NCBI GenBank assembly: GCA_946546945.1
Contig: CAMNOU010000006.1
Span: 1-64,000, forward strand
DNA: 64,000 nucleotides
Origin: an uncultured Lachnospiraceae bacterium
Lineage (GTDB): Bacteria; Bacillota; Clostridia; Lachnospirales; Lachnospiraceae
Direction: 5' to 3'
The translations under genes and the position numbers were made by a program. Shown here piece by piece: positions 4,903-60,700 of the stretch (positions are counted from its first letter, which is position 1; the number at the start of each line of letters is the position of its first letter). The notes under the pieces are model-generated. The model had not been told where the DNA came from and did not search any database. It was given only the letters and a program-made list of their open reading frames with translations.

Positions 4903-5235
4903 ATGAAAATCAACACAGTTATGGTAATCGGAGCTGGTCAGATGGGCGGAGGCATCGCGCAGGTATTCGCACAGACAGGCGCGAAGGTCTACTTAAACGA
5001 CATCAAACAGGAATATATCGATAAGCGTATGGCGTTTATTGAGAAGCTGCTGACAAAAGATGTGGCCAAGGGCAAAAAGACAGAAGAAGAGAAGGCTGCT
5101 GTTCTGGCCATCATGGAAGTCCTGTACGAAGGATATTCAGACAGCAAGTACCGTCCCTGCCCGCTGCTGCGTCAGTATGTGAAAGCAGGCTGGCTGGGGA
5201 AGAAGACAGGACGCGGATTTTATAAATATGAGTAG
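4903..5235 (+). pseudogene. hbd: 3-hydroxybutyryl-CoA dehydrogenase with internal in-frame deletion
   Basis: The ORF encodes 110 aa, against about 280 for the family. Residues 1-67 are the normal N-terminus with the NAD-binding loop [15 protein letters not shown]. Residue 68 onward is the extreme C-terminus ([17 protein letters not shown], then [12 protein letters not shown]). About 170 codons are missing, including the catalytic His/Glu dyad and most of the dimerisation domain. The join falls at CTGGCC, where both normal partners would read Leu-Ala, so short-homology recombination is likely. The ribosome site (AAAGGAGG) and start are intact, so a short peptide may still be made. It cannot be an active dehydrogenase. 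Confidence 0.88.
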
Positions 5236-5260: not shown

Positions 5261-5809
5261 ATGGAAAACTATGTAAAGTATGAAAAGAAAGAATGGGGCG
5301 CGCTGCTGACGATTGACAGACCGAAAGCTCTGAACGCATTAAATCCGAATGTCCTGAACCAGCTGCGGGAAAACCTGGCGCTTTGTGAAAAAAATCATGC
5401 AAAAGTCGTGATTATCACAGGAGGCGGAGAGAAAGCATTTGTTGCAGGCGCTGATATTGCGTCCATGAAGGATATGAATCCGGCTGAGGCGAAGGAATTC
5501 AGCCGCCTTGGTCAGAGTATTATGCACGGCATTACCGGAATGCATGCAATTGTGATTGCTGCGGTAAATGGCTATGCTCTTGGCGGCGGCTGTGAACTGG
5601 CCATGGCCTGTGATTTTTGTATTGCATCCACAAAAGCGCGTTTTGGTATCCCGGAAGTTTCTCTCGGGGTAATCCCCGGCTTTGGCGGGACACAGCGTCT
5701 GTCCCGGATCGTCGGCACCGGAAAAACCATGGAAATGATGCCCGCATCCTCCGGATCTATGAGGGAACGAGCGAAGTCCAGAAGATGGTCATTTCCCGTG
5801 CTGTCATGA
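5261..5809 (+). pseudogene. crt: Truncated crotonase (3-hydroxybutyryl-CoA dehydratase), out-of-frame tail
   Basis: Residues 1-159 are a good crotonase N-terminus: KALNALN, the oxyanion-hole segments FVAGADI and YALGGGCELAMACD, and the catalytic-Glu region PEVSLGVIPGFGGTQRL. After GKTMEM the similarity stops at about nt 5737. The remaining 23 residues (PASSGSMRERAKS and on) are another gene read in the wrong frame. About 100 C-terminal residues are lost, including the trimer-forming helices. It starts 25 nt after the hbd remnant, so both belong to one former operon. It is probably non-functional, although the active-site residues themselves remain. Confidence 0.88.
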
Positions 5810-17544: not shown

Positions 17545-18771
17545 ATGAGTCTGAACAGTACACCAGGCGCCAACCGTGTTCATATCGGTTTTTTCGGCGT
17601 CCGCAACGCGGGAAAGTCCAGTGTCGTCAATGCCGTGACGGGGCAGGATCTCGCAATTGTATCCGATACGAAGGGAACCACGACGGATCCGGTCTCAAAA
17701 TCTATGGAACTTTTGCCCATCGGGCCGGTGGTCATTATCGATACGCCGGGATTTGATGACGAGGGCAGTCTGGGAGAACTGCGTGTCAGGAAGACAAAAC
17801 AGGTACTGAACCGGACGGATATTGCAGTTCTCGTTGTGGATGCTTCGGAAGGGTTGAAAACGGCAGACAGGGAAATGCTGGAATTGTTCCGCCAGAAGGA
17901 TATTCCGTATGTGATTGCCTATAATAAATCGGATCTTCTGGAACAGGAGCCAAAGCAGGAAAAAGAGGCTGGCAAAGAGGAAACCGGAGAACATGAAATC
18001 TATGTCAGCGCTCTGGAAAAGAAAAATATTTATGAGCTGAAGGAAATGATCGGACGGACCGCGAAGAATCCGGGCAGCCGGGTTGAGATCGTGGGCGATC
18101 TGATCAGCCCGGGAGATCTGCTTGTGCTGGTCGTTCCGATTGATACGGCTGCGCCGAGGGGGAGACTGATCCTGCCGCAGCAGCAGACGATCCGTGATAT
18201 CCTGGATTCCGGAGCTGCCGCGGTTGTTGTGCGGGATGCGGAATTGAAGGATACCCTGGAAACGCTGGGGAAGAAACCGGCTATGGTGATTACGGACAGT
18301 CAGGTATTTCAGAAGGTTTCCAGAATTGTGCCGCAGGATATTCTGCTTACTTCTTTTTCCATCCTGATGGCCCGCTATAAAGGATTTCTCGACGTGGCCG
18401 TACAGGGCGTCCGGGCTGTCGAGACGCTGAAAGACGGCGACCGGGTCCTGATCAGTGAGGGATGTACGCATCACAGACAGTGTGAGGACATCGGGACTGT
18501 CAAGATACCGGCATGGCTGAAGGAATATACCGGGAAAGAGATTTCCTTTGAAACCAGTTCCGGAACCGGATTTGAGGAGGATCTGACTCCTTATCATATG
18601 GTCATCCACTGCGGGGGCTGCATGCTCAATGAGCGGGAGATGAAGTACCGGATGAAATGTGCCGTGGATCAGGGAGTTCCGTTCACGAACTACGGGATCT
18701 TTATTGCATATGTGCATGGGATACTGAAACGCAGCGTGGAGATCTTTCCGCACTTATATGAACAATTCTGA
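17545..18771 (+). CDS. hydF: [FeFe]-hydrogenase H-cluster maturation GTPase HydF
   Basis: A scaffold that receives the 2Fe subcluster made by HydE and HydG and delivers it to HydA. The 408-aa protein has the GTPase motifs GVRNAGKSS (P loop), DTPGFDD (G3) and NKSD (G4), then the cluster ligands CTHH near residue 306 and HCGGC near residue 354. HydE, HydG and HydA are not in this window. It is the first gene of the operon that continues 52 nt later into the NifH-like gene, an unusual association of a [FeFe] maturase with Hyp genes. Confidence 0.93.
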   Translation: MSLNSTPGANRVHIGFFGVRNAGKSSVVNAVTGQDLAIVSDTKGTTTDPVSKSMELLPIGPVVIIDTPGFDDEGSLGELRVRKTKQVLNRTDIAVLVVDASEGLKTADREMLELFRQKDIPYVIAYNKSDLLEQEPKQEKEAGKEETGEHEIYVSALEKKNIYELKEMIGRTAKNPGSRVEIVGDLISPGDLLVLVVPIDTAAPRGRLILPQQQTIRDILDSGAAAVVVRDAELKDTLETLGKKPAMVITDSQVFQKVSRIVPQDILLTSFSILMARYKGFLDVAVQGVRAVETLKDGDRVLISEGCTHHRQCEDIGTVKIPAWLKEYTGKEISFETSSGTGFEEDLTPYHMVIHCGGCMLNEREMKYRMKCAVDQGVPFTNYGIFIAYVHGILKRSVEIFPHLYEQF

Positions 18772-18823
18772 GAGCAGGCCGGCGGCATTCAGCCGTCTGT
18801 ACGGCAGCCGGATGAGGTGAGAG

Positions 18824-19564
18824 ATGAAAAAAATTGCAGTTTACGGAAAGGGAGGCATCGGAAAATCGACGATTGTCTCGAATATGGCGGCAGCCCTGGC
18901 GCTCGAAGGATACCGGGTGGCACAGATCGGCTGTGATCCGAAGGCGGATTCCACGATCGGACTCCGGCACGGAGAGCCGCTTGCGACCGTGCTTCAGACA
19001 TTCCGTGAGAAGAAAAATGATTTTGCCCTGGATGATATCGTCAGGGAAGGCTATGCCGGCGTGGTATGTGTGGAGGCCGGAGGACCGGTCCCGGGCATGG
19101 GGTGTGCCGGCCGGGGCATTATTACGGCACTGGAAAAACTGGAGGCAAAGGGATTCTACGAGACATACAGGCCGGATATTGTTTTTTACGATGTCCTGGG
19201 CGATGTGGTGTGCGGAGGTTTTTCCATGCCGATGCGAAGCGGGTACGCGGATGAAGTCTATATCGTTTCCTCCGGAGAAAACATGTCCATCTATGCGGCC
19301 GCGAATATTGCGTCCGCAGTCAGGAATTTCAAAGGCAGGGGCTACGCGTCGCTGGGAGGCGTGATCCTGAACCGCAGGAATGTGAAGAACGAAGAGCAGA
19401 AAGTAAGGGAACTGTGTGAGGATTTCGAAACGAAGATCGTCGGAGCTATCGATTATTCCGAACTGATTCAGGATGCGGACGAAAGAAGGATCACCCTGAT
19501 GGAGGCATATCCGGACAGCGTGATCGCAGAGGAATTCCGGAGGCTTGCAAAAATATGCTGTTGA
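18824..19564 (+). CDS. NifH-like ATP-dependent reductase, copy 1
   Basis: A 246-aa iron-protein homologue (NifH is about 290). It keeps the P loop GKGGIGKST, the switch GCDPKADST and both cluster cysteines at the subunit interface, Cys94 in GMGCAGRG and Cys130 in GDVVCGGF. It should therefore dimerise around a [4Fe-4S] cluster and pass electrons with ATP hydrolysis. It is shorter at the C-terminus than true NifH. The following NifD-like gene overlaps it by 10 nt. It belongs to the uncharacterised nitrogenase-like (Nfl) class rather than nitrogen fixation; the target is presumably the next two gene products. Confidence 0.9.
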   Translation: MKKIAVYGKGGIGKSTIVSNMAAALALEGYRVAQIGCDPKADSTIGLRHGEPLATVLQTFREKKNDFALDDIVREGYAGVVCVEAGGPVPGMGCAGRGIITALEKLEAKGFYETYRPDIVFYDVLGDVVCGGFSMPMRSGYADEVYIVSSGENMSIYAAANIASAVRNFKGRGYASLGGVILNRRNVKNEEQKVRELCEDFETKIVGAIDYSELIQDADERRITLMEAYPDSVIAEEFRRLAKICC

Positions 19565-20886
19565 ATGTGAAAGAGGCAAAGGTGCCAATCAGGGAAGCCC
19601 GTTTTCCGGCCCCGTTTCAGGAGGGGCTGGAGTACAGTTCTCCGGCCCGGGGCACGTGGAATATTGTACATACCGGCATGCTGATTCCGGAAGCGCATCA
19701 GATCTTTGTCTGTGCGCTCGGCTGCCTTCGGGGAGTGGTTCTCACGGCAGCGGAGATGAATGCGCTGGACCGGTATTCCGCGATTCAGATCCGGGAGGAA
19801 AATGTGCTGGACGGCGGCATGGAGGAGCTGATGATCGAAGGGGTCGCGGATGTTCTTGCGAAACTGGATTACCGGCCGCGCGCCATCCTTCTTTTCATCA
19901 GCTGTCAGCATTTTTTCCTGGCCTATGATAAAGAGCTGGTGTTCCGGACACTTCGGGAACGTTTCCCGGATATTAAGTTCGCAGACTGTTACATGATCCC
20001 GACGCTCAGAAAGAGCGGACTGACTCCGGATCAGAAGATGCGGATCCAGATGTACAGTATGTGGGAAAAAAGAGAAAAGAAGAAAAAGGTCAATCTGATC
20101 GGGAGCAATCTGAGGACGTCTCCGTCTTCGGAACTGGTACAGATGGTGGAAAATGCCGGCTATGCGTTCTGGGATCTCTACCGGTGCAGAACCTTTGACG
20201 ACTATATGGATATGGCGGAGGCAAAGCTGAATATCGTCTATGAGCCACTTGCGCTCATGGCTGCGGAGGAACTCAAAAAACGGCTGGGACAGGAATATCT
20301 GTATCTGTCGTTCAGTTTTGATTTTGATGAGCTTGAAGATAATTACAGGAAGCTTGCCGCTGCGCTGGAGACAGAAAAACCGGATTTTTCCGGGCTGCAG
20401 AAAAAAGCGGACGAAGCCATGCTCCGCGCAAAAGAGGTGATCGGAGACACGCCTGTGGCGGTGGATTATACGTTTACCTTTCGCATTCTGAGCTTTGCGC
20501 GGATGCTGCTCGAATACGGATTCCGAGTCACAGAAATCTATGCGGATGCTTTTGCTGCCGAAGATGAGGAAAACTTCCGCTGGATCCGGGAGCATTTTCC
20601 GGATATGATCATCTCGGCGACGAACCGCCCGGAAATGAGATTTCTGTATCACGGAGATGACGCCGGAGACGGCGGGACAAAGCGCCAGCGCGTACTGGCG
20701 GTCGGACAGAAGGCGGCGTATTTTACCCGGACCGATTATTTTGTCAATGTCGCGGAGAGCGGCGGATACTATGGATATGATGGCATCATCCGGATCGCGG
20801 ATCTGATGATTGATGCCTGGAAAAATAAAAAAGACAGGAAGTCCATCATCCAGAAAAAGGGATATGGATGTGAGAGCTGCTTATGA
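19555..20886 (+). CDS. NifD-like nitrogenase component 1 protein, copy 1
   Basis: A 443-aa homologue of nitrogenase component 1 alpha chains. Candidate cluster cysteines are Cys53 and Cys57 (FVCALGC) and Cys117 (FISCQHF), in the places of the NifD P-cluster ligands. By eye, the FeMo-cofactor cysteine (NifD Cys275) aligns with Glu230 in NIVYEP, so no FeMo-co is expected. A cysteine in the segment RCRTFDDY (Cys211) is shared with copy 2 and looks family-specific. The C-terminus ends in CESCL. The start overlaps the NifH-like gene and has GGAGG about 11 nt upstream. The role is unknown. Confidence 0.82.
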   Translation: MLLNVKEAKVPIREARFPAPFQEGLEYSSPARGTWNIVHTGMLIPEAHQIFVCALGCLRGVVLTAAEMNALDRYSAIQIREENVLDGGMEELMIEGVADVLAKLDYRPRAILLFISCQHFFLAYDKELVFRTLRERFPDIKFADCYMIPTLRKSGLTPDQKMRIQMYSMWEKREKKKKVNLIGSNLRTSPSSELVQMVENAGYAFWDLYRCRTFDDYMDMAEAKLNIVYEPLALMAAEELKKRLGQEYLYLSFSFDFDELEDNYRKLAAALETEKPDFSGLQKKADEAMLRAKEVIGDTPVAVDYTFTFRILSFARMLLEYGFRVTEIYADAFAAEDEENFRWIREHFPDMIISATNRPEMRFLYHGDDAGDGGTKRQRVLAVGQKAAYFTRTDYFVNVAESGGYYGYDGIIRIADLMIDAWKNKKDRKSIIQKKGYGCESCL

Positions 20887-22046
20887 AACAGGTAACAGGA
20901 AGGATCTGCACGTATTCATCGGATGAATTCGGTATCTGCTCAGCGCTTTATGAGCTGGGGGGCATGGTGGTCATGCATGATGCGTCCGGATGCAATTCGA
21001 CGTATACGACGCATGATGAACCGCGCTGGTATGACATGGACAGCATGATCTTCATCTCCGCCATCTCCGAGGCAGAGGCGATCATGGGTGATGACGATAA
21101 GTTCATTCATGACCTGACGGAGACGGCACAGGAGCTGCAGCCGGAGTTTGTCGCGCTGGTCGGAGCCCCGATTCCGTATATGATCGGGACGGATCTGGAT
21201 GCAATCGCGAGGATCGTGCAGGAAAAAACGGGCATCCCGGCCTTTGGGTTTGCCGCAAATGGGATGAACGATTACACAAAGGGCATCTCCATGGCCTTAA
21301 AGAAGATCGTTCATGTCTTCTGTGAAAAAAGAGAGTATGAAAAAAACCCGGAGTGTCCGGTGGTCAACATCATTGGAGCAACGCCGCTTGATTTTTCTCT
21401 GAACCGGAGCGTGGAATCCATGCAGGCATGGATCACTGAGAACCGGATGCAAAACGGAGTCTGCCTGGCCATGGGCTGCACGAAAGAGCAGATCGGCTCG
21501 ATGGCAGAGGCGGATGTGAATCTGGTGGTATCCCGCGGAGGACTGGCGGCAGCGGAATACATGGAAGAGAACTTCGGGATCCCCTATGTGGCCGGCATCC
21601 CGTTCGGGGAACGCTTCGGCGCGCAGCTGGCAGAAGAGGTCAGAAAGGCCGCGGCAGACGGAGTCAGCCGGATCGGATACCCGGACAGAGAAGCAGACTC
21701 TCTGACAGAGAAAAAGAAATATGTTCTGATCGGCGACAGCGTCTTCGCCTCGAGTCTTGCAGCGGCGCTTTGGATGGAGGCAAAGATGGATGTCCGGGTG
21801 CTGTGCCCGCTTGATACAGAAGAAAAGCTTCTGAAAAACAATGCGGTCCGGACACCGGAGGAAGATGACATCCTGAGGGAAATCAAAGACGCGGACGCGG
21901 TGATCGCGGATCCGCTGTACAGGCCGCTGACAGACAGGCAGAAGATGATAGAGCTGCCCCACGAGGCTTTTTCGGGAAGAATCTATGATTCTGTGAATCC
22001 GAATCTGATCGGGGCAAATTTGAAAGGATGGATAGAACAATGCTGA
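20883..22046 (+). CDS. NifK-like nitrogenase component 1 protein, copy 1
   Basis: A 387-aa beta-type component 1 homologue starting in a 4-nt ATGA overlap. Two P-cluster-type cysteines are present, Cys19 (FGICSALY) and Cys37 (DASGCNS). The third position reads [13 protein letters not shown] where NifK has a cysteine, so the cluster would be asymmetric. The DEPRWY motif after Cys37 is shared with copy 2. It presumably pairs with the upstream D-like subunit as an alpha2beta2 reductase fed by the NifH-like protein. No known substrate gene is adjacent. Confidence 0.82.
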
Positions 22047-22792
22047 AACTTGCGATTTACGGGAAAGGCGGGATCGGAAAATCAACAACGACAGCCAATC
22101 TGGCTGCGGCTTTTGCTGTTCTCGGCAAAAAAGTGATTCAGATCGGATGTGATCCGAAGGCCGATTCGACGATCAACCTTCTGGGAGGGCATCCTCTGCT
22201 TCCGGTCATGAATTATATCCGCGACCGGGATGAGGAGCCGGAGTCTTTGGAGGAGATCGCAAAGGAGGGATTCGGCGGCGTTCTGTGCATCGAGACGGGA
22301 GGGCCGACCCCGGGACTCGGATGTGCCGGAAGAGGCATCATTACTACCTTCAGCCTGCTGGAGGATCTCGAATTGTTTGAGACCTGTCAGCCGGATGTGG
22401 TGCTTTATGACGTCCTCGGCGATGTTGTGTGCGGCGGCTTTGCCGCGCCGATCCGCGAGGGCTATGCGGAACATATCCTGATCGTGACGTCAGGGGAGAA
22501 GATGGCACTTTACGCAGCCAACAATATTAATACGGCGGTAAAGAATTTTGAGGACCGCGGTTACGCGACGGTGAAGGGAATTATTCTGAACCGTAGAAAT
22601 GTGGAGAATGAATATGAAAAGGTATCTGCTTTTGCCGCAGAGAACGGACTTGAGATCATAGCGGATATCCCAAGGAGCAATGACATCACGCGTTACGAGG
22701 ATCAGGGGATGACCGTGATAGAAGGCGACCGCGATCTGCCGGTCAGCCGGATCTATCTGGATCTCGCGAGAAGATTATTGGAGGAATCATGA
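22040..22792 (+). CDS. NifH-like ATP-dependent reductase, copy 2
   Basis: From the ATG at 22040 ([10 protein letters not shown], matching the family N-terminus) the protein is 250 aa; the track start at 22028 adds four residues. P loop GKGGIGKST, Cys95 in GLGCAGRG and Cys131 in GDVVCGGF are intact. It overlaps the end of the K-like gene by 7 nt (ATGCTGA). It is clearly a paralogue of copy 1. Having a dedicated iron protein for each component 1 pair suggests two distinct reductases rather than a simple dosage effect. Confidence 0.9.
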
Positions 22793-24096
22793 AAAACGAG
22801 GTTTATTCGATAACAGCCGCCGAACTGGCGCAGAGAGGAAAAGAGAATGTTCCGGATGAGCTGCAGTCATCCAGACACCTGATCTACAGTTCCCCGGCGA
22901 CCCTGTCTTTTAACTCTCCGGGCGCACAGGGCTTTGGCGTGAAGAGAGCGGGGCTGTCGATCCCCGGATCCGTGATGCTTCTGGTGGCGCCGGGGTGCTG
23001 CGGAAGAAATACGATGATGCCGGTCGACCCGGGCGAGTTCGGTTCAAAGTTTTTTTATCTTCTGCAGGATGATACAGACATTGTGACCGGACGCCATCTG
23101 AACAAGATTTCAAAGGCGGTCAAAGAGGTGGTGGATTCGCTGGAGGAGAAGCCATCCGCGGTGATGATCTGCATCACCTGTGTGGATGCTTTGCTCGGGA
23201 CAGATATGGAGCGTGTCTGTAAAAAGGCGTCGGATTATGCGGGGGTTCCCGTTCTTCCGTGCTATATGTACGCGCTGACCAGAGAGGGAAGAGTGCCGCC
23301 CATGGTGGCTGTGCAGAAGACCATTTATTCACTTCTGGAAAAAACAGACAGAAAGCGGGATGCGGTCAATCTGCTGGGAGAGTTTGCTCCCTTTGCGGAT
23401 GACTGTGAACTTTATGAAATCTTAAAGGATCTTGGGATCCGTAAGGTGCGTGAGATCTCCCGCTGTCAGACCTTTGATGAGTACCGGCAGATGGCAGAGG
23501 CGAATTTTAACATTGTACTCAATCCGGAGAGCCGCCTGGCTGCGGGGGATCTGAAAAAAAGACTGAATATCCCGGCACTCGAGATGACCAGAGTCTATCA
23601 GATCGACAAGATACGGAAACAGTATGAACTGTTTGCGGCCGCGCTTCATGTAACCATCGATGATGAAAAGTGGTACCGGGAAGCCGAGGCAGCGGTCCGG
23701 GATTTTACGGAATGTTATCCGGATACAGAATTTGTCGTGGGAGAATGGCTGAACGCGGATCCGTTTGAGCTTTCCCTGGCGCTGATCCGTTACGGACACC
23801 GGGTAAGTGAGATCTACGGAACGGTGACCGGTACAAATTTTGTTTATATCAGAAAAATCGCTGCGCTGAGCCCGGATACCAGAATCTATACGAATCTGTC
23901 CCCGACGATGTTAAATTACAATATCACGGGATCCGGGGCAGCCTGCTCGATCGGAAAAGACGCGGCGTACTATCATCCCGACAGTGTGAATGTCGCCTGG
24001 AATGAAGAGAACAAGCCGTTCGGATACCGGGGGCTTGCGAAATTGTTTCAGGAATTAAAGAGTGCGATGGACCGCACGGAAAGGAGCGGCAGATGA
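22789..24096 (+). CDS. NifD-like nitrogenase component 1 protein, copy 2
   Basis: 435 aa, in an ATGA overlap with the NifH-like gene. Likely cluster ligands are in APGCCGR (Cys70/71) and ICITC (Cys128/131). The segment [15 protein letters not shown] with Cys226 mirrors RCRTFDDYMDMAEA of copy 1, which shows paralogy. The FeMo-co cysteine position holds Asn245 (NIVLNP). The cysteine spacing near residue 70 differs from copy 1, so the two complexes may bind different clusters or have different roles, as NifDK and NifEN do. Function unknown. Confidence 0.82.
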
Positions 24097-27000
24097 AAGG
24101 ATTATTAAAATATTTGTCCCCTTTTGCACCGGATCAGTCCGGAGCGGTGTCTGTATTCTATACCATGGGAGGCATCACTGTGATCTGTGACGCGGGAGGC
24201 TGTACCGGGAATATCTGCGGATTTGACGAACCGAGGTGGTTCATGGAAAAAAGCGCGGTTTTCAGCGCCGGCCTTCGCGATATGGACGCGATCCTGGGAC
24301 GGGATGACCGTCTGGTCGAAAAGCTGAAGGATGCGGCTTCCCGTCTGGGAGGGAATTTTGCCGCGATCATCGGCACACCGGTGCCGGCGGTTATCGCGAC
24401 TGATTTTCAGGCCATAAAACGGATGGCAGAGAAACGCTGCGGCATGCCGGTCATGACGGTTGCCTGTACCGGAACACGGCTCTACGATGAGGGAGCAAAA
24501 GAGGCGTATCTGGAATTGTTCCGCACGTTTGCCGGAGAGGACGTAAAGCCCGATCCGAAGACCATCGGTGTGATCGGGGCGATCCCGCTGGATACGACTT
24601 ATCTGCATGCGGACCAGTTCCTGAAAAAGCAGTACGAAGAACAGGGCTATGATCGAATCTGGTGTTACGGGATGGGAGCTGGCCTCGAAGAGGTAAAGCA
24701 GGCAGGCGCGGCTTCTCTCAACATTGTCCTGTCGCCGGCCGGACTGGCGGCGGCCAGGTATCTGGAAAAAACCTTCGGCACTCCCTATGAAGTACGGTTT
24801 GATCTGCTTTCCGACCAACTGAAGGCCGGACTCAGACAGCTGACAGGAAAAAAAGTACTGATCGTCCATCAGCAGGCGGCGGCCAATGCCATGAGAGAAG
24901 AGATCCGGAAGGCCGGAAATGCCGATGTGGTCTGCGGGACCTGGTTTATGCAGGAAGAAGAACTTTCTGAACCGCAGGACGTGCGGTTTGAGCGGGAAGA
25001 TCAGTTTATCGAATATATAGAATCGGAACAGTTTGACGCCATTGTCGCTGATCAGATGTTCCGCAGAGCTTTGAAGAATTACCGGGGGATTTTTATAGAG
25101 GCAAATCATTTTGCCGTTTCCGGGATACCGGATGACAGTGTGCCTGCGGCGGAAGAACCGGATCTTTTGTTGACGACGAATGTGGTGCGTGTGTACGGGA
25201 TTGTACAGGGCGTGGGCTTCCGGCCGTTCGTGAGCAGGATCGCTGACCGGGCAGGCGTGACCGGGAGCGTGGCAAATAAGGGCTCCTATGTGGAAATATT
25301 CCTGAATGGCAGTCCTGAAGCCAGAAAACAGTTTTTATACGATCTGGAACATTGTGCCCCGGAGCGGTCTTCCATCCTGAAGATCGATGTTTCAGAATGT
25401 GCGCGGCGTCCGTTCGACCGGTTTGCTATTATTGAGAGTGAGAAGGAGACGGGAGATATCTTTGTCTCGCCGGATATCGCGACCTGTCCGAAGTGCAGAC
25501 AGGAACTGTATGATCCGTCGAACCGCAGGTATATGCATCCATTCATCAACTGCACGGCGTGCGGGCCGCGGCTGACGATTCTGGATTCGATGCCCTATGA
25601 CCGGGAGCGCACAAGCATGGGCGAATTTCCCATGTGCCCGGAATGCGAGTATGAATATACCCATGCGGAAACCAGACGCTATGACGCGCAGCCGGTCTGC
25701 TGCAATGACTGCGGGCCGGAGGTCTATCTGCTGGGCCGGAAGGAGCGCGGCAGAGAGGCGATCACCTTTGTGCGGAAGGCGATCCTGGAGGGAAAGATTA
25801 TTGCAGTCAAGGGAATCGGCGGCTTCCATCTGTGCTGTGACGCTGCAAACGAGGCTGCCGTTGCCCGCCTGAGGCAATTAAAGCACCGGCCGGCGAAGCC
25901 GTTCGCAGTCATGATGCGTAATCTGGAGACTGTGGAGGCCGAGTGTGAAGTATCGGAGGCGGAAAAGGAAGTGCTGGACGGCCATCAGAAGCCGATCATT
26001 CTGCTGAAGCGAAAGCCCGGCAGCCGTCTTGCCCCTTCGGTTGCTCCGGACAATCCGAGGGTCGGGGTCATGCTTCCGTACGCCCCGGTGCAGATGCTTT
26101 TATTTGATTACAATGATGACATAGAGATGACGACAGACAGTTTCGTCATGACCAGCGGCAACGTGTCGGGCGCGCCGATCTGCCGCACAGATGAGGACGC
26201 TGTGAAGGAACTGAGCAGTTTTTGCGATCTCATTTTGTCTCACAACCGCAGGATCCGGCTTCGGGCAGATGACTCTGTCATGGGCTTTTATCAGGACGAA
26301 CCCTATATGATCCGGAGATCAAGAGGGTACGCCCCCCTTCCGGTCATGATGAGCGAAGCCCGGACGGGGCAGGTGCTGGCTGTCGGAGGAGAACTGAAAA
26401 ACACGTTCTGTATTGGAAAAAACCAGCTTTTCTATCCTTCTCCGTATGTAGGAGATATGGCTGATCCGCGGACGGTGAACGCCTTGAGGGAATCGATTCG
26501 GAGGATGGAAGAACTTCTGGAGACGAAGCCGGAGCTCGTTGTCTGTGATATGCATCCGAAGTATAATACAACGGTCGTGGCAAAGGAACAGGGGATTCCC
26601 CTTCAGATGGTGCAGCATCATTACGCGCATATCCTGTCCTGTATGGCGGAAAATGATGTGCCGGAAAATGAAAAGATCATCGGCGTTTCCTTTGACGGGA
26701 CCGGATACGGCACGGACCAGACCATATGGGGAGGCGAATTCCTGATCTGTGATTACAACGGCTTTGAACGTGCGGGCAGCATCCGTCCGTTCCTGCAGAT
26801 CGGCGGGGATGTCTCTGCCAGAGAAGGATGGCGGATCGCGGTCGCTATGATCAATGAGCTCTTTGCGGATCAGGCGGAAGAGATGGTGCGGAAGCTGGAT
26901 CTTTGCCCGCCGGATATGCAAAAGCTCTATGTACGGATGGCAGAAAGAAAGATCAACTGTGTGGATTCGACCAGCGCGGGGCGGCTGTTTGACGCCGTCA

Positions 27001-27554
27001 GCGCAGTCCTCGGGATCAGGAAGTGCTCAACTTTTGAGTCGGAGGCTTCCGTGACCCTGCAGTTTCGGGCGGAAGCGTTTGAGGAGAAAGCCAGGGCGAA
27101 CGGAATCGATACCGGACGCCTGTTAGACGAGTTTATGAACGGCAGAACAGAAAATGCCATCTGTGTAGTTCCGGCATCGATGGAGGAACCGGAGATGTCG
27201 GAAGAAGGGGACCGGTTCCTGTTAAGGACAGGACATCTGTTTGCCCTGCTGGCGGAGCTGAAGATGAAAGGCGAGGACAGTTCAAAGCTTGCCTATCTGT
27301 TCCATGCATCTCTCGCCCGGCAGATTACGGCCGGCTGCAGAGCAATCGCAAAACAGACCGGTTTGCATAAAACAGCATTAAGCGGCGGTGTTTTTCAGAA
27401 TCAGCTTCTGCTCCGGCTGTGTGAAACGCAGCTGGAAAAGGAAGGATTCCGGGTGTACCGGCACCGCCTGATTCCGCCCAATGACGGCGGACTTGCGCTT
27501 GGGCAGGCCGCCTGGGGGATGGCTTATCTGAACAGAGAAAAAGGAGGAAAATAG
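24093..27554 (+). CDS. hypF: Fusion: NifK-like component 1 domain (copy 2) + complete HypF carbamoyltransferase
   Basis: One uninterrupted 1153-codon frame. Residues 1 to about 345 are a NifK-like domain (DAGGCTGNICGFDEPRWF; the VIGT-type loop lacks the third cysteine, and Cys19 of copy 1 is Val here). After a linker of about 20 residues, residues 364-1153 are a full HypF. This has an acylphosphatase domain (GIVQGVGFRPF), two zinc-finger pairs (CPKC and CPEC with their partners), a YrdC-like domain (TSGNVSGAPICR) and a Kae1-like domain (HHYAH, SFDGTGYG, SAGRLFDAVS, PPNDGGLALGQ). HypF makes the carbamoyl group that HypE turns into the cyanide ligand of [NiFe]-hydrogenase. The join lies between intact domains, so a designed fusion is more likely than an error. 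HypC follows 1 nt later. Confidence 0.9.
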   Translation: MKGLLKYLSPFAPDQSGAVSVFYTMGGITVICDAGGCTGNICGFDEPRWFMEKSAVFSAGLRDMDAILGRDDRLVEKLKDAASRLGGNFAAIIGTPVPAVIATDFQAIKRMAEKRCGMPVMTVACTGTRLYDEGAKEAYLELFRTFAGEDVKPDPKTIGVIGAIPLDTTYLHADQFLKKQYEEQGYDRIWCYGMGAGLEEVKQAGAASLNIVLSPAGLAAARYLEKTFGTPYEVRFDLLSDQLKAGLRQLTGKKVLIVHQQAAANAMREEIRKAGNADVVCGTWFMQEEELSEPQDVRFEREDQFIEYIESEQFDAIVADQMFRRALKNYRGIFIEANHFAVSGIPDDSVPAAEEPDLLLTTNVVRVYGIVQGVGFRPFVSRIADRAGVTGSVANKGSYVEIFLNGSPEARKQFLYDLEHCAPERSSILKIDVSECARRPFDRFAIIESEKETGDIFVSPDIATCPKCRQELYDPSNRRYMHPFINCTACGPRLTILDSMPYDRERTSMGEFPMCPECEYEYTHAETRRYDAQPVCCNDCGPEVYLLGRKERGREAITFVRKAILEGKIIAVKGIGGFHLCCDAANEAAVARLRQLKHRPAKPFAVMMRNLETVEAECEVSEAEKEVLDGHQKPIILLKRKPGSRLAPSVAPDNPRVGVMLPYAPVQMLLFDYNDDIEMTTDSFVMTSGNVSGAPICRTDEDAVKELSSFCDLILSHNRRIRLRADDSVMGFYQDEPYMIRRSRGYAPLPVMMSEARTGQVLAVGGELKNTFCIGKNQLFYPSPYVGDMADPRTVNALRESIRRMEELLETKPELVVCDMHPKYNTTVVAKEQGIPLQMVQHHYAHILSCMAENDVPENEKIIGVSFDGTGYGTDQTIWGGEFLICDYNGFERAGSIRPFLQIGGDVSAREGWRIAVAMINELFADQAEEMVRKLDLCPPDMQKLYVRMAERKINCVDSTSAGRLFDAVSAVLGIRKCSTFESEASVTLQFRAEAFEEKARANGIDTGRLLDEFMNGRTENAICVVPASMEEPEMSEEGDRFLLRTGHLFALLAELKMKGEDSSKLAYLFHASLARQITAGCRAIAKQTGLHKTALSGGVFQNQLLLRLCETQLEKEGFRVYRHRLIPPNDGGLALGQAAWGMAYLNREKGGK

Positions 27555-27555
27555 A

Positions 27556-27762
27556 ATGTGTGTAGGTTTGGCTGCAAAAGTAGTAGGAATGAAAGACGGA
27601 ATGGCAGTGGTGGATGCTTCCGGAGCAAGACGGGAGGTTTCCGCCGAACTGCTCGATGAGCTGGAGCCGGGCGATTATGTGATGGTCCATGCAGGAATCG
27701 CCATCGCAAAGATCGACGGGGATGATCAGGCTGAGGCCGAGGATATTATCGGATTGCTCTAA
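27556..27762 (+). CDS. hypC: HypC-family hydrogenase maturation chaperone
   Basis: 68 aa, starting MCVGLAAKV, with the essential Cys2 exposed after methionine removal. The family core DYVMVHAGIAIAKID is present. HypC carries Fe(CN)2CO together with HypD and hands it to the hydrogenase large subunit. GGAGG precedes the ATG, and only one base separates it from the hypF stop. No large-subunit gene is present in the window to receive the cofactor. Confidence 0.92.
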   Translation: MCVGLAAKVVGMKDGMAVVDASGARREVSAELLDELEPGDYVMVHAGIAIAKIDGDDQAEAEDIIGLL

Positions 27763-27816
27763 GAGAAATGCAGAATAGAGCAGTATTTTGCGTGAAGATG
27801 GAAAGCAGGTGCGTTT

Positions 27817-28869
27817 ATGGAAGATATTATACAAAAGGCGCGGTCCATTATCGAAGGATATGACGGGCCGAAGCTGCGGATCATGGAGGTCTGCGGGACA
27901 CATACCCATGAAATATTCCGTCTGGGGATCCGAAAGATCCTGCCGGAAAATATTGAACTGATCTCGGGCCCGGGATGTCCGGTCTGCGTGACACCGGTGG
28001 GGTTCATCGATGAGGCTGTCTGGCTGGCTCTGGAGAAAGGCTGTCTGATCTGCACCTTCGGAGATCTTATCCGGGTGCCCGGCACAAAGATGAGCCTGGC
28101 CGGGGCCAGGGCGGAGGGGGCACGGATAAAAGTGGTCTACACACCGCTGGATGCGGTTCAGATTGCCCGGGACAATCCGGGGGAGGAGGTTGTCTTCTTA
28201 TCTGTAGGATTTGAGACAACAACGCCGTCGGCATGTCTGTCCGTTAAAAAGGCAAAGGAACTCGGGCTGAAGAACTTCTCGATCCTGACAGCCAATAAGA
28301 CGATGCCGAACGCCTACCAGACACTGAAGGGCAGTGCGGATGCTTTTCTTTATCCGGGACATGTCAATGCGATAACCGGTGAAGCGGAGTGCAGAAAGCT
28401 TGCGGAAGAGGGCGTATCCGGCGTAATTGCCGGATTTACGGCAAAGGAACTTCTGACAGCGCTTGCGGTCATTGTGGAAAAATCAGGGTCGAAAGAACCG
28501 TTTTTTGTCAATTGTTATCCGAGAGTTGTCAGAAAAGAGGGAAATCCGGCGGCCCTCCGGATGATCGATGAGGTGATGGAGCCGTGTGATTCCCGGTGGA
28601 GGGGACTCGGAGTGATACCGGGGTCCGGATTAAAGCTGAAGGAAGAATATAAAGAATACGACGCCAGAGTGAAGTATGCGGTCCCGCAGATACAGGGGCA
28701 GGAGAATCCGGCCTGCAGATGCGGGGATGTCCTGCAGGGAAAATGCAGGCCTTCCGACTGCAAAGTATTCGGAAAAGGCTGCACGCCCCAGCATCCCGTC
28801 GGAGCCTGCATGGTCTCCAATGAGGGAACCTGTTCCGCGTATTATCAGTACGGCGCGGCCCGCAGCTGA
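27817..28869 (+). CDS. hypD: HypD, Fe(CN)2CO assembly iron-sulfur protein
   Basis: 350 aa with all hallmarks: CGTHTHEIF (about residue 26), GPGCPVCVTP (about 50), the GFETTTP motif near 128 and a C-terminal [4Fe-4S] domain (CRCGDVLQGKCRPSDC then GKGCTP, GACMVSNEGTC). HypD with HypC is the site where Fe(CN)2CO is built. It is 54 nt after hypC in the same operon. All catalytic cysteines appear intact, so the protein should be active. Confidence 0.94.
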   Translation: MEDIIQKARSIIEGYDGPKLRIMEVCGTHTHEIFRLGIRKILPENIELISGPGCPVCVTPVGFIDEAVWLALEKGCLICTFGDLIRVPGTKMSLAGARAEGARIKVVYTPLDAVQIARDNPGEEVVFLSVGFETTTPSACLSVKKAKELGLKNFSILTANKTMPNAYQTLKGSADAFLYPGHVNAITGEAECRKLAEEGVSGVIAGFTAKELLTALAVIVEKSGSKEPFFVNCYPRVVRKEGNPAALRMIDEVMEPCDSRWRGLGVIPGSGLKLKEEYKEYDARVKYAVPQIQGQENPACRCGDVLQGKCRPSDCKVFGKGCTPQHPVGACMVSNEGTCSAYYQYGAARS

Positions 28870-28899
28870 AATTTATAATGAAAACATGAGGGAAAAAAG

Positions 28900-29907
28900 A
28901 TGTCAGAAAAGAAAATATCGCTTGCTCACGGAGCCGGCGGCAGACAAACAGCAGAATTGATCCATGAAGTGTTCCGGGAACATTTTTCCAATCCGGAATT
29001 TACGGCTGATGACGCAGCAGTTCTGGATGTCGGAGGCGCAAAAATCGCCATGTCGACAGACGGGTTTATTGTTTCCCCCTATTCGTTCAACGGGGGGAAC
29101 ATCGGAAAGCTCAGTATCTGCGGAACCGTCAACGATCTCGCCTGTATGGGGGCAAAACCATTATACCTGACCTGCTCCTTTATTATTGAGGAAGGGTTTC
29201 CGTTTGATGAGCTGGAAAAGATTGCCGCCAGCATGGAGAAGACCGCAAAAGAAGCGGGAGTCAGAATTGTGGCCGGAGATACCAAGGTGGCCGGGAAAGG
29301 ACAGGTGGATCACGTATTTATCACCACCACCGGCATCGGACGCCTGACGGAAGGCGTCTCCACATCCGGCGCCTTCGCCAAACCAGGAGACGTGGTTTTG
29401 GTGACCGGAGATGTAGGACGCCACGGCTGCACCATTCTTCTGGCAAGAGAAGATCTCGGTATTGAAGCCGATATCAAAAGTGACTGTGCTCCTCTCTGGG
29501 GGACCGTGGAATCCATGATCGCCGCAACGAAGGATATTCACGTCATCCGGGATGCCACAAGAGGCGGCGTCGGAACCGTACTCTATGAGATCGCCGCAGA
29601 GAGTAATGTCGGCGTCCGCTTAAACAGCGAAGCGATTCCGGTGGATCCGGCCGTCCGCGGCGTGTGCGGCATGCTCGGACTGGATCCCCTTTATCTGGCG
29701 AATGAGGGAACCCTGGTCGTGATCGCTCCGAAAGAGCAGGCCGGTGTGCTTCTTGAGACATTAAAAAAAGGGAAATATTCCGCGAACGCGGCCATCATCG
29801 GAGAAATCACGGAAAGCATGCCCGGAAAGGTAATTGTGACAACAGAAATCGGGGCAGAGACGATGCTTCCGGAACCCGGCGGGGAACTGCTGCCGAGAAT
29901 CTGCTGA
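28900..29907 (+). CDS. hypE: HypE, carbamoyl dehydratase (cyanide donor)
   Basis: A 335-aa PurM-like ATPase that dehydrates the carbamoyl group on its C-terminal cysteine to thiocyanate. The sequence ends in PRIC, the functional C-terminus. HGAGGRQT at the start and DATRGGVGTVL in the second half are conserved. It is the last gene of the operon. With HypF, HypC and HypD it completes the Fe(CN)2CO pathway, while the nickel-inserting HypA and HypB are missing. Confidence 0.94.
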   Translation: MSEKKISLAHGAGGRQTAELIHEVFREHFSNPEFTADDAAVLDVGGAKIAMSTDGFIVSPYSFNGGNIGKLSICGTVNDLACMGAKPLYLTCSFIIEEGFPFDELEKIAASMEKTAKEAGVRIVAGDTKVAGKGQVDHVFITTTGIGRLTEGVSTSGAFAKPGDVVLVTGDVGRHGCTILLAREDLGIEADIKSDCAPLWGTVESMIAATKDIHVIRDATRGGVGTVLYEIAAESNVGVRLNSEAIPVDPAVRGVCGMLGLDPLYLANEGTLVVIAPKEQAGVLLETLKKGKYSANAAIIGEITESMPGKVIVTTEIGAETMLPEPGGELLPRIC

Positions 29908-32545: not shown

Positions 32546-35497
32546 ATGGCGAAAATGAGAGTTCATGAACTAGCAAAAGAATTGGATATACCGAGTAAGG
32601 AAATCGTTTCATTTCTTACCGGGAAAAATATAGAAGTTAACAGTCATATGAGTGTACTGGAGGACGACGCGGTTTCGCTGGTCAAAAAACAGTTCGGCGC
32701 AAAACCGAAGAGTTCTGACGCGCCGGAAGCGTCAAAGGCTCCGAAAAGTGCTGCTGCCGGAGAGGATGGCGCAGTCAGAAGAGAACGGCCGAAGAAAAAG
32801 GCAAGCATCTCAGCGGTCTATAATCCGCAGAACAGCAAGATGGGAGACCGCAGAGGCGGTTCCAGAGGCCGGAATAATCAGACAAGAATTACAAATGAAA
32901 AAACACGCCCGGCCCGTCCGGCGGGAGAGCGCCCGGCTCGTCCGGCAGGAGAGCGCCCGGTACGCCCGGCAGGAGAGCGCCCGGTACGCCCGGCAGGAGA
33001 GCGTCCGGTACGCCCGGCGGGAGAGCGCCCGGTACGTCCGGCGGGAGAACGTCCGGTACGTCCGGCAGGAGAGCGTCCGGTACGTCCGGCAGGAGAGCGC
33101 CCGGGAAAGGCTGCGGCAGAACAGTCCGCTGCACAGACAGCAGAACGCAAACCGGAACGTCCGGCTGAGGAGAGAACCGTGCGCCTGACAGGGGAGCGTG
33201 TAATCGGAAACATGACTGTCCGCATGACCGGAGATCCGGCCATCGATGAAAAGAATATCCGTCTCGCTTCCGAAAGAGCGAATGCGGAAAGAGCACAGCG
33301 CGCAAGACAGTCCGGTGACAGGCCGTCGCGAAGATACGGTGACAGGCCGCAGAGACAGGAAGGTGACAGAAATGAACGCTCTGAAAAGAAGGATTACGGC
33401 AATCAGAAGAACCATTCGAATAATTACCAGAATAATCGGAATACTTCCGGTAATACTCAAGGTAATCGAAACGGCAGACAGGACGGCCAGAATCGTTTCA
33501 AAGACTCGAAAAACCGACTGAACCAGGGCACGAACCGCACCGGCCGTGATGCCGCAAAAGCTGCTCCCATGGAGGAACTGCGCGGAAAAGATTCCAGAAA
33601 CAGCGGCGTGAATAAAAAGAAAAAACAGGATTATGATAATAAGAAGAACAAGAGACAGGAAAACTATGTAAACCTGGAAAAGAAGACCGGACATAAGAAG
33701 CGCAATGCGGTTCCGCAGGCGCCGGGCGAGAAGAAGACAGATGAAGTACGGACCATTACACTTCCCGAGGTGATGACCGTACGTGAGCTGGCAGATGCCA
33801 TGAAGGTCCAGGCTTCCGAAATCGTCAAGAAACTGTTCATGCAGGGCATCATGATGACGGTGAACCAGGAGATCGAATACGAGAAGGCAGAGGAGATCGC
33901 TCTGGAGTTCAACTGTATTGCTGAGCCGGAAGAAAAGGTAGACGTAATCGCTGAGCTTTTGAAAGAGGAGGAAGAAGATGAAGAGACCATGGTGACCAGA
34001 CCGCCGGTTGTGTGCGTGATGGGGCATGTTGACCATGGAAAGACTTCCCTGCTCGATGCGATCCGCAATACGAGAGTGACGGATAAGGAGGCCGGCGGCA
34101 TTACACAGGCAATCGGTGCTTCGGTTGTCCAGATCAACGGGCAGAACATCACATTCCTGGATACGCCGGGACATGAGGCATTTACCGCAATGCGTATGCG
34201 CGGTGCCAATTCCACAGATATAGCGATCCTGGTTGTTGCGGCGGACGACGGCATTATGCCGCAGACCGTTGAGGCGATTAACCATGCGAAAGCGGCCGGC
34301 GTTGAGATTATTGTAGCGATCAATAAGATTGATAAAGAAGGCGCAAATATCGAGCGGGTAAAACAGGAGCTGACCGAGTATGAACTGGTTGCGGAAGACT
34401 GGGGCGGCAGCACGATCTGTGTTCCTGTATCTGCAAAGACCGGTGAGGGAATCACGGAGCTGCTCGAGATGATCCTTCTGAGTGCGGAAGTTCTTGAGCT
34501 GAAAGCGAACCCGAAGAGAAATGCAAGAGGTCTTGTGATCGAGGCTCAGCTGGATAAGGGAAGAGGCGCGGTAGCGACCGTTCTTGTCCAGAAGGGAACT
34601 TTAAAGGTCGGTCAGGCAGTGGCATGCGGAAGCAGCTTCGGTAAGGTCCGCGCCATGATCGATGACAAGGGAAAACGTGTGAAAGAAGCAGGTCCTTCCA
34701 TGCCGGTTGAGATCCTGGGACTGAACAGTGTGCCGAATGCAGGTGAAGTATTTGTCGTATGCGATACTGAAAAGGAAGCGCGCAGCTTCGCGGAGACCTT
34801 TGTATCGCAGGATAAGGAAAAACTTCTTGCCGAGACAAAAGCGAGAATGTCTCTGGATGATCTGTTCTCACAGATCCAGGCAGGCAGCTTAAAGGAACTG
34901 AATCTGATCGTGAAGGCCGATGTCCAGGGATCGGTAGAGGCAGTAAAACAGAGCCTGACCAAACTTACCAATGAGGAAGTGGTTGTCAAGGTGATCCACG
35001 GAGGAGTCGGCGCGATCAATGAGTCGGATGTATCTCTTGCGGCGGCATCCAATGCAATTATTATCGGATTCAATGTGAAGCCGGATCCCGTTGCAAAATC
35101 TACCGCCGAGCAGGAAGAAGTGGATATCCGTCTGTATGATGTCATCTATAAGGCGATTGAAGATATCGAGGCTGCCATGAAGGGCATGCTGGATCCTGTA
35201 TACGAGGAGCAGGTGATCGGACATGCGGAAGTACGCCAGATCTTCAAGGCTTCCGGTGTCGGCAATATTGCGGGCTCCTATGTGCTTGACGGTGTATTTG
35301 AGCGGGGCTGCAAGATCCGCATCTCCAGAGAGGGAGCGCAGATCTACGAGGGTGCCCTTGCTTCTCTGAAACGATTCAAGGATGACGTAAAGGAAGTCAG
35401 AGCCGGATACGAGTGCGGTCTTGTCTTCGAAGGATTCAACGATATTGCGGAACTGGATGTTGTCGAAGCATATAAGATGGTCGAGGTTCCGCGCTAG
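32546..35497 (+). CDS. infB: Translation initiation factor IF-2 with repeat-rich N-terminus
   Basis: 983 aa. The first ~50 residues form an IF2 N-terminal helix domain. Residues ~90-390 are low complexity, including eight tandem RPAGERP(V/A) octapeptides and an Asn/Gln/Arg-rich stretch. A second N-domain (about 410-460) precedes the GTPase, with GHVDHGKTS (about residue 495), DTPGHEAF and NKID, then domains II-IV. It loads initiator tRNA on the 30S subunit. The N-terminal region is probably disordered and basic. ATG at 32546 follows AGGGAGG. Confidence 0.95.
32905..33103 (+). repeat. 24-bp tandem repeat array inside infB
   Basis: About eight 24-bp units of the type CGTCCGGCAGGAGAGCGCCC encode (V/A)RPAGERP in frame. 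Units differ by synonymous C/T and A/G changes, showing selection on the protein or drift after amplification. The array is prone to slippage, so copy number may vary between strains or be miscounted in assemblies. Confidence 0.9.
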
Positions 35498-59641: not shown

Positions 59642-59653
59642 GGCTCCTTTTTT
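59626..59653. terminator. Bidirectional terminator
   Basis: AAAAAAGGAGCC/GGCTCCTTTTTT, GA-loop stem between the convergent transporter and PHP genes. Confidence 0.85.
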
Positions 59654-60375
59654 TAGTGCGGTCTGCGCTGAATACACTGAAGGATCGCTTCCGGGGAAGT
59701 GTCTTCCGGTTCCAGAAAACACAGTGGTTCCCTGAGCGAATTTAGATCATGTGCATCAGAACTGCTCAGCACATTGCAGTTTTTCAGATATGGATATTGT
59801 TCCTGCAGTGCAGGCCATGTGGAAAGGTCCTTTACTTCGGCACAGGAAAAGCGGCTGTCCGCAGGCACGAATCCCAGGTTTGCCAGAAGACTGGTCGTTG
59901 GTTTGTTGATATGTGCCGGAACCATGATGCCGTGATACTGCTGTGTCAGATCATATACCTGATCGAAGGGGATCATGGTCGCGGATATCAGAAGCTTCTT
60001 TTCATGCCCGCAGATCTGGTCATTTTCATCGCAGATGATCTGATTTCCGAACAGTGCCGGCGTATTCTCAATCGGCGGAAGCTGTTCGTATACATAGCGG
60101 TCAAAGGCCATGGCATCTTTTAAGGAAGAAAAATAGCAAAGGACGTGTACTTCCTCCATCGTTGTCAGTTCCATGCCGTATATCACGTTCATTTCGTAAA
60201 ACTTTGCCGCCGCGTCAAAAGCCGGAAGGTTCTTGCAGGAACTGTGGTCGGTCAGCGCGACCAGATCCAGGCCGATGACTTTGGCCATCCCGACAATATT
60301 CGCGGGAGTCATTTCATCATCTCCGCACGGGGAAAGGCAGGAGTGTATATGGAGGTCGTAGGCAAGCCTAGGCAT
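59653..60375 (-). CDS. PHP-domain phosphoesterase-like protein
   Basis: 240 aa from the ATG at 60375, which overlaps the end of the DRTGG gene by 8 nt. Metal motifs DLHIHSCLSPCGDD, ALTDHSS and the C-terminal SSDAHDLN are typical of the PHP superfamily. The protein is routinely found with hydrogenase regulatory genes in Clostridia, but the substrate is not known. Confidence 0.87.
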   Translation of the reverse strand: MPRLAYDLHIHSCLSPCGDDEMTPANIVGMAKVIGLDLVALTDHSSCKNLPAFDAAAKFYEMNVIYGMELTTMEEVHVLCYFSSLKDAMAFDRYVYEQLPPIENTPALFGNQIICDENDQICGHEKKLLISATMIPFDQVYDLTQQYHGIMVPAHINKPTTSLLANLGFVPADSRFSCAEVKDLSTWPALQEQYPYLKNCNVLSSSDAHDLNSLREPLCFLEPEDTSPEAILQCIQRRPH

Positions 60376-60700
60376 GAAGCTGGTTGTACACTTCAAGAGC
60401 CATGTCAAAGATGGCCTTGTCCGTGCGAAGCAGTGTAATGTCCTGGGAAACAGCCTTCATTTTCATGTTGTCATCGACGGAGGCACTGCAGCACAGAATA
60501 ATACATGCGGCGTCTGCCAGAGAAGCAACGGCCAGAGTGTTCATATTGGACATGACCGTACACCAGGCACATCCGGCCGGAGCGTTTCCCATGGCAACGC
60601 TCAAAAGATCACAGCAATAGGGCTCTGTGATTTCAGCATCTCCGTCACCGAGATGAATGATTTCCAGTTTACAGTTATCGATTAATTCATTTACTTTCAT
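60368..60700 (-). CDS. DRTGG-domain protein, hydrogenase-associated (copy 2)
   Basis: 110 aa. A small alpha/beta protein related to the DRTGG domain of HPr-kinase-like proteins; a CCDLLS start and the CAWCTVMSN segment give five cysteines, more than expected. It shares layout with the copy at 62533. Its position between the HydS-like and PHP genes implies a regulatory role in hydrogenase expression; no mechanism is known. Confidence 0.75.
   Translation of the reverse strand: MKVNELIDNCKLEIIHLGDGDAEITEPYCCDLLSVAMGNAPAGCAWCTVMSNMNTLAVASLADAACIILCCSASVDDNMKMKAVSQDITLLRTDKAIFDMALEVYNQLHA

Follow-up and report, generated by a model that had tools for sequence, protein, structure and literature searches.

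The systems closest to the locus described here are the HydEFG maturation pathway of [FeFe]-hydrogenases, the HypABCDEF maturation pathway of [NiFe]-hydrogenases, and the nitrogenase superfamily. In Hyp maturation, HypF and HypE convert carbamoyl phosphate to thiocyanate, with the cyanide precursor carried by the C-terminal PRIC cysteine of HypE, and HypC and HypD carry an Fe(CN)2CO unit; in Hyd maturation, the substrate of HydE is an Fe(CO)2(CN) unit. For the H-cluster that has been studied, all five CO and CN ligands come from tyrosine via HydG (PMC3105041). Dos Santos 2012 (PMC3464626) describes NifHEN-like genes that accompany genes for hydrogenase maturation in Coprococcus catus and further Firmicutes. 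For the acetogens C. ljungdahlii, C. coskatii, C. ragsdalei and AWRP, Di Leonardo 2022 (PMC9431212) reports HydE and HydF but no HydG, and HypCDEF but neither HypA nor HypB, leaving both absences unexplained. Here, we describe a gene cluster at 17545-29907 of a 64,000-nucleotide window (G000:C6:1-64000) from the 2.77-Mb draft genome of an uncultured Lachnospiraceae bacterium, whose genus we take to be that of Eubacterium ramulus. The cluster encodes HydF, HypCDEF and nitrogenase-like proteins, and we propose that it replaces HydG, with HypCDEF and the nitrogenase-like reductases feeding HydE, HydF and HydA. Judging from sequence comparisons, we put the probability of this reading at about 0.78.

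All genes of the cluster lie on the + strand, and neighboring genes mostly abut or overlap, in the order hydF, H1, D1, K1, H2, D2, K2::hypF, hypC, hypD, hypE:

17545..18771, + strand: HydF, H-cluster maturation GTPase of [FeFe]-hydrogenase (TIGR03918 581 bits, cut-off 325.6; PF18128 and PF18133 domains)
18824..19564, + strand: H1, NifH-like ATPase 1 (PF00142 289 bits; TIGR01287 314 bits, below the cut-off of 394)
19555..20886, + strand: D1, nitrogenase component-1-like subunit (PF00148 65.6 bits; AlphaFold2 predicted local distance difference test (pLDDT) 84.6)
20883..22046, + strand: K1, nitrogenase component-1-like subunit (PF00148 100 bits)
22028..22792, + strand: H2, NifH-like ATPase 2 (PF00142 299 bits)
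22789..24096, + strand: D2, nitrogenase component-1-like subunit (PF00148 96.6 bits; AlphaFold2 pLDDT 84.4)
24093..25130, + strand: K2, nitrogenase component-1-like subunit, N-terminal part of a fusion (PF00148 at residues 17-233 of a 1153-amino-acid open reading frame)
25185..27554, + strand: HypF carbamoyltransferase, C-terminal part of the fusion (TIGR00143 753.6 bits, cut-off 466.1)
27556..27762, + strand: HypC, 68 amino acids (TIGR00074 58.6 bits, cut-off 48)
27817..28869, + strand: HypD (TIGR00075 398 bits)
28900..29907, + strand: HypE (TIGR02124 427 bits)

HydF, HypC, HypD, HypE and HypF each score above their curated profile cut-offs, and HypF shows acylphosphatase, zinc finger, YrdC and Kae1-like domains in Pfam. 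The initial annotation had hydF heading an operon with hypCDEF at 27556-29907; the place of hydF stands, as do hypC, hypD and hypE, while hypF is the C-terminal part (residues 365-1139) of the preceding open reading frame, 24093-27554, an in-frame K2::HypF fusion. As far as we have seen, K2 and HypF are joined in this genome only: in relatives, K2 has its own gene apart from hypF, and the joined reading frames found in some lineages are H1-D1, D1-K1 and D2-K2. The main surprise of the locus, which the initial annotation did not notice, is that the six genes separating hydF from hypF (18824-25130) make up two complete nitrogenase-like NifH/D/K modules.

The evidence throughout is comparative genomics, and the genome counts are not independent of each other. 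We searched 61 genomes family by family (20 of the same genus and 41 other relatives), as well as 50 further cluster-bearing genomes from Clostridium acetogens, Blautia, Roseburia, Lentisphaeria, a spirochaete and a synergistid, one of which (E. ramulus) overlaps the genus set. HydG (TIGR03955) was above its cut-off in none of the 20 genus genomes and in 18 of the 41 other relatives. The same 20 genomes all encode HydE and HydA (several copies each), HypD and D2, and all except one very fragmented genome encode HydF (19/20); D2 at comparable strength was found in none of the 18 HydG-bearing genomes. Among the 50 further genomes, HydE is present in 47 and HydG in one, C. drakei, while 18 of the 20 HydE-bearing relatives without the cluster do have HydG. 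The anticorrelation between HydG and the cluster is strong (Fisher p ~1e-15, calculated on genome counts without correction for kinship). Incomplete assemblies were rejected as the sole cause of the absence of HydG, given 0/20 and 1/50 for HydG against 20/20 and 47/50 for HydE.

The genome of the window itself follows this pattern. Of two maturases that the initial annotation had named, HydE is present (TIGR03956 584 bits, G000:C10:34163-35185) and HydG is absent. It also encodes several [FeFe]-hydrogenases, two of which exceed the group A6 HydA cut-off of 765 (913 and 785 bits), and all three H-cluster motifs are found in two of its HydA proteins, including the 785-bit one. A group A6 NADH-dependent HydA lies just beyond the end of the window (G000:C6:66351-68177). 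Inside the window, 60739-62055 encodes a protein that is like the C-domain of [Fe]-hydrogenase and has 4Fe-4S motifs; it is closer in character to the sensory HydS-type group than to a catalytic hydrogenase, and its neighbor (59653-60408) is a PHP-domain protein. For C. autoethanogenum, a close relative of C. ljungdahlii, a functional [FeFe]-hydrogenase complex has been reported (Wang 2013, as cited in PMC9004356); C. ljungdahlii has the cluster and no HydG. The accessible main text of the C. autoethanogenum transposon-essentiality study (PMC9004356) names no gene of the cluster.

The best HydG match in the genome (176 bits, cut-off 312) is the ThiH of the thi operon. We rejected this 421-amino-acid protein as a true HydG, since it is located in a thiF-S-G-H operon and covers only HydG positions 37-373. 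One could still suppose that a ThiH-like tyrosine lyase, or free CO and CN, does the work of HydG, with the cluster merely assisting (for example by CO supply or detoxification): the genus genomes keep ThiH in the thi operon (~170-196 bits to HydG), here beside thiG, thiS and thiF, and HydE and HydF alone give ~1% activation with trace diatomics (PMC9431212). We consider this very improbable. C. ljungdahlii has no ThiH-like match, its sole match (68 bits) being its HydE; ThiH lacks the C-terminal domain of HydG and is found in HydG-bearing genomes too; and the conserved C-terminal cysteine of HypE implies a dedicated cyanide synthesis.

Scanning 85,462 species genomes gave 246 D2-encoding loci, 80 of which were kept for study. 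They include Clostridium ljungdahlii, carboxidivorans, drakei, ragsdalei, luticellarii and muellerianum, as well as Anaerostipes, Blautia luti, Roseburia faecis, Faecalicatena contorta, Lentisphaeria, a spirochaete and a synergistid. Two gene orders recur, H1D1K1-H2D2K2-hypFCDE and H2D2K2-hypFCDE-H1D1K1, and in Lentisphaeria, Spirochaetaceae, Oscillospiraceae and Clostridiaceae the cluster forms part of an operon TM1266-(HydF)-HydE-H1-D1-K1-H2-D2-K2-hypFCDE. Within the 80 loci, HydE occurs in 19, HydF in 17 and TM1266 in 43, and at least one of the three is found in 47 of the 55 loci of at least 15 kb. TM1266 is the family TIGR03959, a putative iron-only hydrogenase system regulator (two examples score 110 and 106 bits, cut-off 60.8). 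The reading frames of HydE and H1 share 4-8 bases in Lentisphaeria, in the spirochaete and in an Oscillospiraceae genome, as expected of one operon.

In the HydE tree, built from 40 sequences, HydG-partnered and cluster-partnered proteins are interleaved; even counting only well-supported branches, the cluster label must have changed at least 5 times. Furthermore, of 114 positions that do not vary among HydG-partnered HydE, 93 are invariant in the cluster-partnered proteins too. The HydE clade of the Clostridium acetogens is more divergent, and C. drakei falls within it. A form of HydE specialized to the cluster was sought in the tree and in the invariant positions and was not seen. HydE has thus exchanged partners repeatedly, in several independent swaps, with no visible re-specialization. 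This suggests that HydE receives the same product, or a similar one, from either partner. Separately, Lentisphaeria with operonic HydE encode a second, divergent HydE-like radical S-adenosylmethionine protein (~39% identity to the HydE of our genome), for example at G076:C7:2601-4100.

HypCDEF might instead carry out ordinary [NiFe] maturation, with a large subunit that is divergent or missing from the assembly and with nitrogenase-like genes that are unrelated neighbors. The predicted key residues of HypCDEF are indeed intact, the genome has a lone HypB, and the [NiFe] large subunit family PF00374 occurs in 10 of the 50 further cluster-bearing genomes. Nevertheless, no PF00374 protein was found in any of the 20 genus genomes, the genome of the window included, as the initial annotation had observed for the 64 kb, and on this count ordinary [NiFe] maturation was rejected. 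In six relatives outside the genus PF00374 is present, and all six also have HypD, so outside the genus HypD accompanies [NiFe]-hydrogenase. The HypD of the cluster is different: it forms one clade in 200 of 200 bootstrap trees, apart from the [NiFe]-linked HypD of the same family, and this clade spans Bacillota, Spirochaetota and Lentisphaerota, indicating that the cassette moves as a unit. Moreover, hyp and nitrogenase-like genes stay together in different phyla, and HypF has K2 as its fusion partner. The PF00374 counts and the HypD tree thus largely refute this explanation, which we regard as the least probable of those weighed here.

HypA and HypB are likewise absent from the operon, as first annotated. 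A solitary HypB-family gene is located elsewhere in the genome (G000:C11:73452-74081, 240 bits), HypA not having been searched for genome-wide. Only 3 genomes out of the 20 in the genus have a HypB above the cut-off, and genomes without HypD can have one too, so HypB is not tied to the locus. In genome G001, a hypAB pair lies distant from hypCDEF; this pair and the lone HypB probably serve another nickel enzyme. The counter-case that the initial annotation had named, a [NiFe]-hydrogenase with hypAB elsewhere in the genome, was thus not found, the genome having HypB alone and no PF00374 protein. Its suggestion of a nickel-free recipient for the Hyp products, which it did not name, gains support.

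The residues required for cyanide and iron chemistry are conserved in the Hyp proteins. HypC retains Cys2 and His45 invariantly, HypD conserves C26, C54 and C57 together with a C-terminal set (iron-ligand and 4Fe-4S cysteines), and C335 in the PRIC end of HypE is kept in 60 of 61 relatives. In HydF, the Cys and His of the CxHHxxC and HCxxC motifs are invariant in 18 relatives. The 4Fe-4S cysteines of the NifH-like ATPases (H1 C94 and C130; H2 C99 and C135) are invariant in 79 relatives, and further invariant cysteines are found in D1 (C57, C117), K1 (C37), K2 (C37, C42) and D2 (C70, C71, C128, C131 and C144, with C158 nearly so). Still, the nitrogenase-like proteins score below the nitrogenases and related families: H1 and H2 score 314 and 308 bits against NifH (cut-off 394), with CfbC at 309 against 402; D2 scores 74 bits against NifE (cut-off 505); the best figure for DPOR BchB is 52 bits against 490; and D1, K1, D2 and K2, all PF00148 proteins, are far under every nitrogenase cut-off. 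Where NifE has its cofactor-ligand cysteine (NMMVCSK), D2 aligns with NLVLNPE and has none. With scores this low and the cofactor cysteine missing, true nitrogen fixation by the locus genes was rejected.

By sequence, the nearest PDB entries are NifE for D2, and DPOR ChlB and nitrogenase alpha for K1. Comparing the AlphaFold2 models with Foldseek, the nearest solved folds to D1 are NifK/VnfK/AnfK/NifN, at template modeling (TM) scores of ~0.65-0.69, along with DPOR and methylthio-alkane reductase (Mar); D2 has a fold like NifK, NifEN and DPOR, and TM scores for D1 and D2 are ~0.6-0.7 overall. In another explanation, the cluster builds a different organometallic cofactor, such as an Fe-CN-CO centre in a nitrogenase-like complex that itself acts as an enzyme, with HydE and HydF shared and HydG missing for some other cause. 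Two full NifH/D/K-like sets seem more than a maturase needs, the related DPOR, CfbCD and Mar are catalysts, with the fold of D1 near DPOR and Mar, and two HydG-less genomes without the cluster exist (G052 and G030). We nonetheless think this explanation unlikely, although less so than the two others: near-universal HydE, near-total absence of HydG, and operonic HydE, HydF and TM1266 all point to the H-cluster, and D2 does not keep the cofactor-ligand cysteine of NifD and NifE. A genome from the same family has another nitrogenase-like H-D-K set, which lies outside the hyp cluster and beside an iron-siderophore/cobalamin-type ABC transporter (G023:C24:18001-28000).

Replacement of HydG by the locus is well supported, with gene content, synteny, HydG anticorrelation, conservation and repeated partner exchange in the HydE tree all directly observed; from these we infer the following chemistry. 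HypF, here fused to K2, would take the carbamoyl group of carbamoyl phosphate and attach it to the C-terminal cysteine of HypE. HypE would dehydrate it to thiocyanate, and the cyanide would then pass to an iron bound by HypC together with HypD. In other systems, Hyp proteins are established to carry out these steps, and all the key residues that we checked are conserved here. The NifH/D/K-like complexes, driven by ATP, could provide low-potential two-electron steps that ordinary Hyp proteins do not offer. Speculatively, one or both complexes might make CO, perhaps by reducing carbamoyl or CO2-level carbon, and to assign this to either module would be equally speculative; they might also convert a unit of the Fe(CN)2CO type to one of the Fe(CO)2(CN) type, or hold it meanwhile, and the K2-HypF fusion might place the reductase next to carbamoyl transfer. 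We infer that the product of the cluster enters HydE, so that an Fe-CO-CN unit would travel to HydE, HydF and finally HydA. Taken as a whole, it is probable that HypCDEF cyanide synthesis and two ATP-driven nitrogenase-like reductases constitute a second, independent route to the H-cluster ligands, providing the Fe-CO-CN unit for HydE, as a cassette that spread among Bacillota, Lentisphaerota, Spirochaetota and a synergistid, exchanging repeatedly with HydG.

Several points weigh against replacement of HydG by the locus. C. drakei has HydG and the cluster together. In the loci of the Clostridium acetogens, no HydE, HydF or TM1266 adjoins the cluster. HypCDEF normally lead to Fe(CN)2CO and not to the Fe(CO)2CN of HydE, which requires an unproven conversion. 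Finally, two relatives, G052 and G030, encode HydE and HydF although both HydG and the cluster are lacking; HydG can apparently be absent without the cluster, or has dropped out of those assemblies. In G052, which is 99% complete and encodes HydA, HydE and HydF stand in a TM1266-HydE-HydF operon (G052:C7:36001-46000), possibly a third solution or an assembly gap. The single-contig genome G057 encodes a HydA-like protein with near-canonical H-cluster motifs (EVMACPGGCIGGAG) at G057:C1:2912001-2920000, with none of HydE, HydF and HydG above cut-off.

Two features of the window stand apart from the cluster. At 4903-5235, a 110-amino-acid open reading frame resembles 3-hydroxybutyryl-CoA dehydrogenase with most of its middle gone, and adjoins a shortened crotonase (5261-5809), an apparent deletion or assembly fault. 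At 32906-33104, a 24-base-pair tandem repeat of 8.3 copies encodes RPARPAGE-type repeats within translation initiation factor IF-2.

HydG is lacking, with all other parts of the pathway retained, in common gut bacteria (Blautia, Roseburia, Eubacterium ramulus, Faecalicatena and Anaerostipes) and in the industrial syngas species C. ljungdahlii. If correct, the proposed pathway would explain how such gut and syngas bacteria build their cofactor, would assign a function to an orphan group of nitrogenase-like proteins that is widespread, and would account for HypCDEF without a nickel enzyme. It would also join the three great organometallic systems, the two hydrogenases and nitrogenase, in one pathway, and it is directly testable in tractable acetogens.

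We found no paper joining nitrogenase-like and Hyp genes to a missing HydG, most subscription journals and preprints lying outside the search. The genes of Dos Santos 2012 (PMC3464626) come in two linked copies with a 2+1 cysteine pattern like that of D1/K1 here; the accessible text does not link them to HydE, HydF, TM1266, the absence of HydG or the kind of hydrogenase, nor to Lentisphaeria, spirochaetes or acetogens. Di Leonardo 2022 (PMC9431212) does not discuss nitrogenase-like genes (nitrogenase appears only in a reference title) and leaves its two absences unconnected. With NifEN, NifDK and DPOR, the locus shares the PF00142 and PF00148 folds, and the predicted structures of D1 and D2 match NifK, NifN/NifE and DPOR; it differs in scores far under the NifH, NifD, NifE and CfbC cut-offs, in a D2 without the cofactor cysteine, in fewer P-cluster-type cysteines, and in its linkage to hydrogenase maturases. 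With HypABCDEF, it shares HypCDEF, including the residues needed to make Fe-bound cyanide, whereas it has no large subunit, HypA and HypB are not part of it, its HypD forms a separate clade, its HypF is fused or adjacent to a nitrogenase-like subunit, and HydE and HydF stand in the same operon elsewhere. With HydEFG, it has in common HydE, HydF and HydA, plus TM1266 in many loci, and the HydE of both kinds of genome interleave in one tree; in place of HydG, it has HypCDEF and two NifH/D/K-like modules. Each part comes from a known superfamily, and the novelty lies in the proposed pathway as a whole.
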